This document shows, in pieces, positions 2,543 to 4,007 of a DNA stretch of 14,891 bases (positions within the stretch are counted from its first letter, which is position 1; each line of letters opens with the position of its first letter). Location of the stretch: NCBI GenBank assembly GCA_007136585.1, contig SLGR01000187.1:1-14891 (forward strand), in the 5' to 3' direction. Source of the DNA: Candidatus Sumerlaeota bacterium (GTDB taxonomy: Bacteria; CG03; SLGR01). A program made the position numbers and the translations under genes. The notes under the pieces were generated by a model, which was not told the DNA's origin, made no database searches, and saw nothing but the letters and a program-made list of their open reading frames with translations.

Positions 2543-3637
2543 GTGCAAATAGAAGATAAAAAACAAGTCGTAGAAGAACTCAGGGAACTTTTCCGGAGCC
2601 ACGAAAGCCTTATAATAGCAGGGTACCAGGGTCTGCGTGTAAACGATCTCAATGAGATGAGAAGAAAACTGGATACTGCCGGGTGCAGTTTCAGAGTGGT
2701 GAAAAACCGCCTTGCCGTGAGGTCGCTTGACGCGCTTGGAGAGAGCGAGGCCTCCGAACTTTCTGAACATTTCCGGGGTCCTACGGCTATTCTTATGGGG
2801 GCTTCCGAACCTTCCGACGCGATTAAAATTTTTAAAGAGTACTCGGAGGATAACGAGCTTATGGCGTTCAAGGGGGGGATAATGTCGGGACTTCTTTTAA
2901 ACCGTCAGCAGGTTAACAAGATAGCGCAGCTCCCCTCCAGGGAGGTTCTTCTGGCCCAGACAGCCTCTGCGCTTCACGCTCCGGTTCAGGGCCTTTATAA
3001 CGCGCTTGCCGGGACGGTTCGCGGCCTGCTTTTCGCGCTGAAGGATTATATAAAAAAGAAAGAAGAGGAGCCTTCGGAAGATAAAGCTGAGAAACCTGAG
3101 CCGGCCGCCGCGGAAGAAGAGAAACCTTCCGCTGAACCCGCCGGTGAGGAGAAAGAAGGTTCGGCTGAGGCGGAGAGTTCCGGCGAAGAGGAAGAGCCTG
3201 CGGATGATAAGGCTGAAAAACCTGAGTCCGCCGGTTCGGATGAAGAAGATTTGAAAGAAACGGAGCCGGCTGAAGTTAGCGCTGAGAAGCCTGAGCCGGC
3301 CGCCGCTGAAGAAGAGAAACCTTCCGCTGAACCCGCCGGTGAGGATGAAAAAGGTTCCGCTGAGGCGGAGAGTTCCGGCGAAGAGGAAGAGCCTGCGGAA
3401 GATAAAGCTGAGAAGCCTGAGGCCGCCGGGTCGGATGAAGAAGATTTGAAAGAAACGGAGCCGGCTGAAGATAGCGCTGAGAAGTCTGAGCCGGATGCCG
3501 CGGAAGAAGAGAAGCCTTCCGGTGAACCCGGAGAGGCCGTTTCGGATAAGAAAGAGGTTGATAAAGAGCCGGAAGGCTCCGGGAATAAAGAAGACGATAA
3601 TCAGGAGGAGGATCAGGATGGCGCAGAAAAAAAGTAA
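2543..3637 (+). CDS. rplJ: 50S ribosomal protein L10 with a ~190-residue acidic repeat tail
   Basis: A 364-residue L10; the family is usually about 165-180 residues. L10 anchors the stalk: its N-terminal domain binds 23S rRNA beside L11 and its last helix carries the L7/L12 dimers. Residues 1-173 are ordinary L10: [19 protein letters not shown], then [35 protein letters not shown] and a final helix region up to LKDYIKKK. From 174 to 364 follows a low-complexity tail rich in Glu, Pro, Ala, Ser and Lys, containing a 65-residue tandem repeat (copies at 182-246, 247-311 and a partial one from 312). By my count one copy has 26 acidic residues and 6 lysines. The tail is probably disordered, and its role is unknown. 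Translation starts at GTG 2543 with GGAGGAG at 2531-2537. The frame is continuous, so this is not an obvious frameshift fusion. The last 20 nt overlap rplL. Confidence 0.95.
3086..3535 (+). repeat. 195-bp in-frame tandem repeat inside rplJ, about 2.3 copies
   Basis: Copies begin at 3086, 3281 and 3476, exactly 195 bp apart, and the third stops after about 60 bp (3535). Each encodes a 65-residue unit starting [20 protein letters not shown]. Copies 1 and 2 agree at about 59 of 65 residues by my alignment; the partial third copy reads [20 protein letters not shown]. Within each unit there is a shorter echo, DKAEKPE followed by an acidic run, so the unit itself probably arose by internal duplication. 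The period is a multiple of three, so gain or loss of a copy would keep rplJ and the downstream rplL start intact. The strand is strongly purine-rich. Confidence 0.93.
3603..3611 (+). promoter_or_regulatory. Very strong ribosome binding site for rplL, inside rplJ
   Basis: AGGAGGAGG lies 6 nt before the rplL ATG (3618). The same bases encode the Gln-Glu-Glu-Asp stretch near the end of the L10 acidic tail (codons CAG GAG GAG GAT). This site decides the rplL start and is one of the two best Shine-Dalgarno matches in the window, the other preceding tuf at 14773. It fits the need for several L7/L12 copies per L10. Confidence 0.85.
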
Positions 3638-4007
3638 CGTGGATAAAATCCTTGAGGAGATTTCAAACCTGACCGTAATAGAGCTTTCGGAACTTGTCTC
3701 TTCCATGGAAGAAAAGTTCGGGGTTACGGCTCAGGCGCCTGTGGCTGTGGCTGCTGCCGGGGCGGCGCCCGGGGCGGCGGCGCAGGAAGAGGAAAAATCT
3801 GAGTTTGACGTTGTTCTGCAGGCTGCGGGCAGTAAGAAAATTCAGGTCATAAAGACGGTAAGGGAGATTACCGGGCTGGGTCTGAAGGAAGCCAAGGCGC
3901 TGGTTGACGGGGTGCCGAAACCCGTAAAAGAAGGCGTTGATAAAGAGACGGCTGAAGAGGTGAAGAACAAGCTGGAAGAGCAGGGGGCAACCGTCGCTGT
4001 AAACTAA
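3618..4007 (+). CDS. rplL: 50S ribosomal protein L7/L12
   Basis: A 129-residue protein of typical L7/L12 size. It forms dimers on the L10 helix and recruits translational GTPases such as EF-Tu and EF-G. The N-terminal dimerisation domain (to about residue 35) contains [18 protein letters not shown] flexible Ala/Gly/Pro hinge follows (about 38-60), then the factor-binding C-terminal domain with [30 protein letters not shown] (about 75-94) and [12 protein letters not shown]. The frame is open upstream for 41 codons, but that stretch is basic and unlike L7/L12; ATG 3618 with AGGAGGAGG at 3603-3611 is the clear start. The gene starts inside rplJ (20-nt overlap) and its stop overlaps the rpoB start (TAATG). 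In most bacteria spacers lie on both sides of rplL, so the arrangement here is unusually tight. Confidence 0.97.

Follow-up and report, generated by a model that had tools for sequence, protein, structure and literature searches.

A long, predicted disordered C-terminal tail on ribosomal protein L10 is a lineage trait of one bacterial order

The window, a 14,891-nucleotide stretch of a metagenome-derived contig assigned to Candidatus Sumerlaeota, contains the gene order rplK-rplA-rplJ-rplL-rpoB-rpoC-rpsL-rpsG-fusA. Within it, rplJ (2543-3637, forward strand) begins with a GTG start codon, ends with a TAA stop at 3635-3637, and encodes an L10 protein of 364 residues. The first 173 residues (2543-3061, forward strand) constitute the L10 core, whose extent is set by two family models, a structural alignment and a predicted helix. 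The NF000955 model is matched over its full length (model positions 1-168 of 168, residues 4-174) with 147.8 bits against a curated cut-off of 85, and PF00466 (Ribosomal_L10) matches residues 2-100 with 88.9 bits (cut-off 22.8). The protein aligns to Thermotoga maritima L10 (PDB 1ZAV), binding helix included, up to residue 170, and AlphaFold2 predicts a C-terminal helix for L7/L12 dimers at residues 133-175. This full-length match, the predicted helix and the position of rplL directly downstream place the protein among the bacterial uL10s.

The rplL gene (3618-4007, forward strand) encodes an ordinary L7/L12 of 129 residues, which matches TIGR00855 over residues 6-128 with 158.2 bits and in which the N- and C-terminal Pfam domains are both found. 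The end of rplJ and the start of rplL are interlocked (3601-3637, forward strand): the rplL ATG at 3618 overlaps the last 20 nucleotides of rplJ, and the Shine-Dalgarno AGGAGG of rplL sits inside the coding end of the L10 tail. On the other side of rplJ, the 200-nucleotide gap that separates it from rplA (2342-2542), which is the expected place of an L10 leader, gave no above-chance match in Rfam. An antisense open reading frame that runs over the tail (2897-3706) was rejected as a gene, as it mirrors the low-complexity coding strand.

Residues 174-364 (3062-3634, forward strand) form a C-terminal tail of 191 residues, which more than doubles L10 and is delimited by its composition, the lack of family or PDB matches, low pLDDT values and its presence throughout the order. 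The residues E, K, D, P, A, S, G, Q, T and N account for 97% of the tail, while those of the ILVMFYW group amount to 2.6% and F, Y, W and C are missing altogether; the net charge is −58 and the charged fraction 0.52. As determined with TRF, a tandem repeat with a period of 195 bp (65 codons) extends in frame over 2.4 copies within the tail (3058-3530, forward strand), with a 90% match and without indels. The sequence-only reading of this locus, which had proposed an ordinary L10 fold followed by a 191-residue tandem-repeat tail, is therefore upheld on both counts. The same reading had the tail project from the stalk base and offered a disordered spacer as one of its possible roles. An AlphaFold2 model, calculated from a shallow alignment of 5 sequences, is consistent with projection and disorder: the predicted L7/L12-binding helix 133-175 precedes the tail, which is modelled without secondary structure at a pLDDT of about 40-49 up to the C-terminus. 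By charge and hydropathy, too, the tail is classed as disordered. Disordered extensions of r-proteins are defined here as more than 20 residues past the C-terminus of the E. coli protein together with predicted disorder, and the 191 residues past the L10 model are predicted to be of this kind.

Residues 174-364 have no match in Pfam, NCBIfam or PDB, and on this basis the idea that the tail derives from a known domain or from a different gene was rejected. Within its own genome no second copy of the tail was found; the sole other match (E = 0.026) is on contig C157, antisense to the Pro/Ala-rich repeat of a DnaA-like gene. The latter (L117, 1280-3350) encodes a DnaA-like ATPase of about 690 residues with a C-terminal Pro/Ala-rich repeat region. 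L10 is the only extended protein among the 16 r-proteins read from the window genome, as the 15 others, which belong to two gene clusters (five in the window and ten in the S10/spc cluster), are all of ordinary length.

We have studied the distribution of the tail in 16 genomes of the phylum. In the order to which the window belongs, a tail of 85-191 residues with an intact frame is present in all seven genomes in which L10 was found, representing four families (f1-f4), while the eighth genome of the order (G007, 66% complete) gave no L10 match. In the sister families f5 and f6 of the same phylum, all seven L10s found are tail-less and stop a few residues past the helix. The comparison with relatives thus bears out the suspicion that the tail is a lineage trait. 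In a tree of the L10 core the order forms a single clade (100/96), adjoined by the tail-less family f5, and the simplest history would be that the tail was gained once, before the order diversified.

The net charges of the seven tails are −58, −37, −18, −32, +6, −9 and −24. The initial description of the tail as strongly acidic is correct for the window, but acidity is not the key property, since a genome of the window's own family (G001) has a tail of 189 residues with a net charge of +6, and the tail of G005 has a net charge of only −9. All tails in the order are devoid of F, Y, W and C, have a charged fraction of 0.30-0.58 and are likewise classed as disordered by charge and hydropathy; they have in common a composition and a length class, but little sequence and no shared motif. 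Judging from this set of sequences, what is kept in the order is the length class, the hydrophilicity and the high charged fraction, and not the sequence or the sign of the charge. The main repeat arrays are codon-phased, with periods of 195 bp in G000, 36/54 in G002, 105 in G004 and 60/102 in G001. Between G004 and G006, which belong to one genus and whose L10 cores are 87% identical, the tails differ in length (177 versus 116 residues) with orthologous ends, and a 105-bp triplication is found only in the longer of the two.

These comparisons also bear on whether the tail, or its repeats, could be produced by misassembly or a frameshift in a metagenome-derived contig. The window genome consists of 257 contigs and is 88% complete, and short reads can miscount a 195-bp repeat, so that we are unsure of the exact number of copies in the window tail. 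However, a tail of different sequence occupies this position in six other assemblies, the repeat copies differ from each other at about a tenth of their bases, and the frame is intact into the rplL start. An artefact of sequencing is accordingly considered extremely improbable.

The age of the tail can be set against the divergence of the L10 core, for which dS is 0.89 in the closest pair and larger than 1.6, or saturated, in the others in the order. In simulations of neutral tails, no more than 1.3% remain open at one substitution per site. As the tails are open in seven of seven genomes despite a near-saturated core dS, the frame must be constrained, and survival by drift is ruled out. The repeat copies within the tail are less informative: while a Nei-Gojobori count gives a seemingly significant pN/pS of about 0.3, a conservative count that allows for transition bias gives an N/S ratio not significantly below neutral, and the claim of purifying selection within the repeat copies was dropped. 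In a pair of genomes from a different phylum (G021 and G308 of f12, described below), 87 tail codons give a dN/dS of about 0.17, at a dS that is close to saturated. These results can be considered in the light of neutral or nearly neutral growth, according to which replication slippage extended a C-terminus that is exposed to solvent and accepts any soluble sequence. Such a process would fit the variation in repeat number between G004 and G006, the scarce conservation of the tail sequence, and the substitutions between repeat copies, which are compatible with little constraint. It is challenged by the absence of any loss in seven of seven genomes at saturating divergence, where neutral tails would gain stops, and by the energy that additional residues would cost in a highly abundant complex of the cell. 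Overall, we regard neutral growth as quite improbable.

The strongest rival to the interpretation that we favour below acts on the mRNA rather than on the protein. According to this hypothesis, the tail is kept since translation of rplJ must terminate at the start of rplL: any earlier stop within the tail would leave rplL uncoupled by hundreds of nucleotides, and the peptide itself would do little. In five of the seven tailed genomes of the order rplJ does overlap the rplL start, by 8-23 nucleotides, and in a sixth the two are 1 nucleotide apart; furthermore, dS in the last 34 tail codons of the G004/G006 pair is 0.20, compared with 0.89 for the core, which would fit a constraint on the RNA at the 3' end. 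Nonetheless, there are tails without overlap (G003, +45 nucleotides; G021 of f12, about +59; f72, +78 to +119) and there is overlap without a tail (G013, −4 nucleotides), and therefore coupling alone is insufficient as an explanation. It also leaves unaccounted for the hydrophilic, aromatic-free character of the tails and their repeated expansion. For these reasons we consider this hypothesis unlikely, although it ranks above the other alternatives.

Outside the phylum, the L10 frames of 309 genomes were read, and each frame of at least 213 residues was fetched. Tails of at least 40 residues that are not L12 occur in 7 of the 309 genomes, with lengths of 45-79 residues (G081, G352, G222 (f72), G379 (f104), G123 (f114), G344 (f245) and G188 (f165)). 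In the small phylum f12, strongly acidic L10 tails of 92-100 residues are present in all four genomes examined; at the corresponding loci (L077-L080, in G021, G308, G169 and G386) one of the tails is built of ExE/VEAEAE-type repeats. The tail of the window is the longest in the survey. In the core tree the order, f12 and f72/f104 are found at three separate places, with f114, f245 and f165 placed without resolution. Long tails on L10 are thus rare in this survey but, on the evidence of the tree, convergent, having arisen independently at least three times. The earlier statement that no bacterial L10 of this kind had been described can be retained in part: no description was found in the open-access literature, which is weak evidence of novelty because most subscription papers lie outside that scope, but the protein is not unique, as tails occur in the whole order and in at least two unrelated clades.

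A separate observation concerns fusions of L10 with L7/L12. In 8 of 17 genomes, from six families, in the phylum of G042, a stop-less rplJ continues in the same frame into a complete L7/L12, across an rplL Shine-Dalgarno and ATG that are both intact (e.g. AAAGAGGGAGGTTTATCTATG), giving an open reading frame of 320-328 residues (loci L118, L119 and L121-L126, corresponding to G042, G392, G391, G400, G325, G402, G399 and G189). The same in-frame fusion of rplJ and rplL is also seen at L069, L100 and L102, and a further, apparently independent one at L103 (G309), in a different family, with the junction TCAGGAGGATCCGTG. Whole-genome searches of the eight fusion genomes gave no second match to L7/L12, and these genes are predicted to yield one L10-L7/L12 fusion together with free L7/L12 from the internal start. 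At L129, L131 and L132 (G395, G397 and G396, from the same phylum as G042) rplJ and rplL share a reading frame and are separated by one stop codon, an arrangement that is possibly a step to or from fusion.

Disordered extensions of r-proteins are reported to be common throughout bacteria and to have a largely elusive function (Xue et al. 2022, PMC9534751). In Mycoplasma pneumoniae 11 r-proteins are extended and disruption of the extensions affects fitness; the detail available is mostly for S6, L22 and L29, with L10 present only as a fitted homology model (PMC9534751). The L10 of the window is similar to these cases in having a long C-terminal extension with respect to E. coli, predicted to be disordered and patchy among lineages, but differs from them in that L10 is the only extended protein of the 16 read, and in that the extension is located at the stalk base and consists of 191 residues. 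The length of the L10 helix has been read as the number of L12 dimers, with a heptameric stalk in T. maritima (PMC6021402). The alignment of core and binding helix with T. maritima L10 through residue 170 makes a heptameric stalk likely also in the organism of the window; while T. maritima L10 (180 residues) stops with the helix, the window L10 adds 191 residues. The suggestion that the tail might space or dock additional L7/L12 dimers did not survive this comparison: extra docking sites were rejected because hydrophobic residues are nearly absent from the tail and because the binding helix, like that of the Thermotoga protein, already has its end close to residue 175.

P0, the archaeal and eukaryotic uL10, has a flexible acidic C-terminal tail near the factor-binding site, and a resemblance to it had been pointed out from the start. 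The two proteins are alike in having an acidic-leaning, flexible C-terminal extension on the protein of the stalk base; they differ in that the window L10 is without the P0-specific extra domain and the acidity of its tail varies among relatives. The archaeal models (PRK04019) score 27-44 bits with the window L10 versus cut-offs of 331-585, and the conserved hydrophobic/aromatic C-terminal motif with which P0 binds factors is absent from the window tail, which has no F, Y or W. A close analogy is thus not supported, and the two tails would be alike in position only. The same data are pertinent to the idea that the tail is a recruitment platform, in which short motifs bind a specific partner (a factor, a nuclease, a chaperone, another ribosome) or in which basic partners accumulate on the acidic chain, as with P0/P1/P2. 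The location of the tail at the factor entrance, the strong acidity of the tails of the window and f12, and the repeats, which could represent several binding copies, are in line with this idea. On the other hand, there is no motif common to the tails of the order, one of which is net positive, and a tail without aromatics and with few hydrophobics is unlike the C-terminal motif of the P-proteins, so that a recruitment platform appears to us a rather remote prospect.

The interpretation that we favour, with a confidence that falls somewhat short of even, is that the tail serves as an electrosteric bristle, a disordered chain maintained at the stalk base under constraint on its composition and not on its sequence. 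We favour it because composition, and not sequence or sign of the charge, is kept; the independent tails of like kind in f12, f72/f104 and others also count in its favour, while the fact that rplJ ends inside rplL in five of the seven tailed genomes counts against it, as retention of the frame could serve the coupling of rplL. A translated, disordered extension would have become fixed on L10 in the ancestor of the order and would have been retained since. On mature ribosomes the tail would emerge where the L10 helix bearing the L7/L12 dimers terminates. The flexible L7/L12 arms have their base at this point, and a hydrated, charge-rich chain originating there would occupy the volume that surrounds the stalk base and the C-terminal domains of L7/L12. 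From standard chain scaling, we estimate the radius of gyration of a disordered chain of 191 residues at about 4-5 nm, which is similar to the reach of the L12 arms. Such a bristle might keep the stalk extended, repel neighbouring ribosomes or sticky proteins, and tune the access of GTPase factors; if length, hydrophilicity and high charge were its sole needs, the sequence would drift and the repeats would expand and contract. Nothing tells a bristle of this type apart from other uses that a disordered chain might have.

Translation GTPases are recruited by the L10-L7/L12 stalk, a structure that is generally regarded as uniform among bacteria but for its number of L12 dimers. The tail described here is a real lineage trait, at a ribosomal site for which the literature searched describes no such extension. 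Its fixation in an order and its separate gain in other clades suggest that a long, charged and disordered chain can be accommodated by the stalk base where the factors enter, and may even be favoured there. The tail also offers a natural removable module with which the effects of crowding and charge near the stalk on translation could be probed. A bolder proposition, which we hold to be rather unlikely, is that some bacterial lineages have independently evolved an L10 tail with an active part in tuning the traffic of factors or the contacts between stalks. If this were true, the tail would be, in function, the bacterial equivalent of the tail of P0, made from an unrelated low-complexity peptide in which composition, and not sequence, is what matters.
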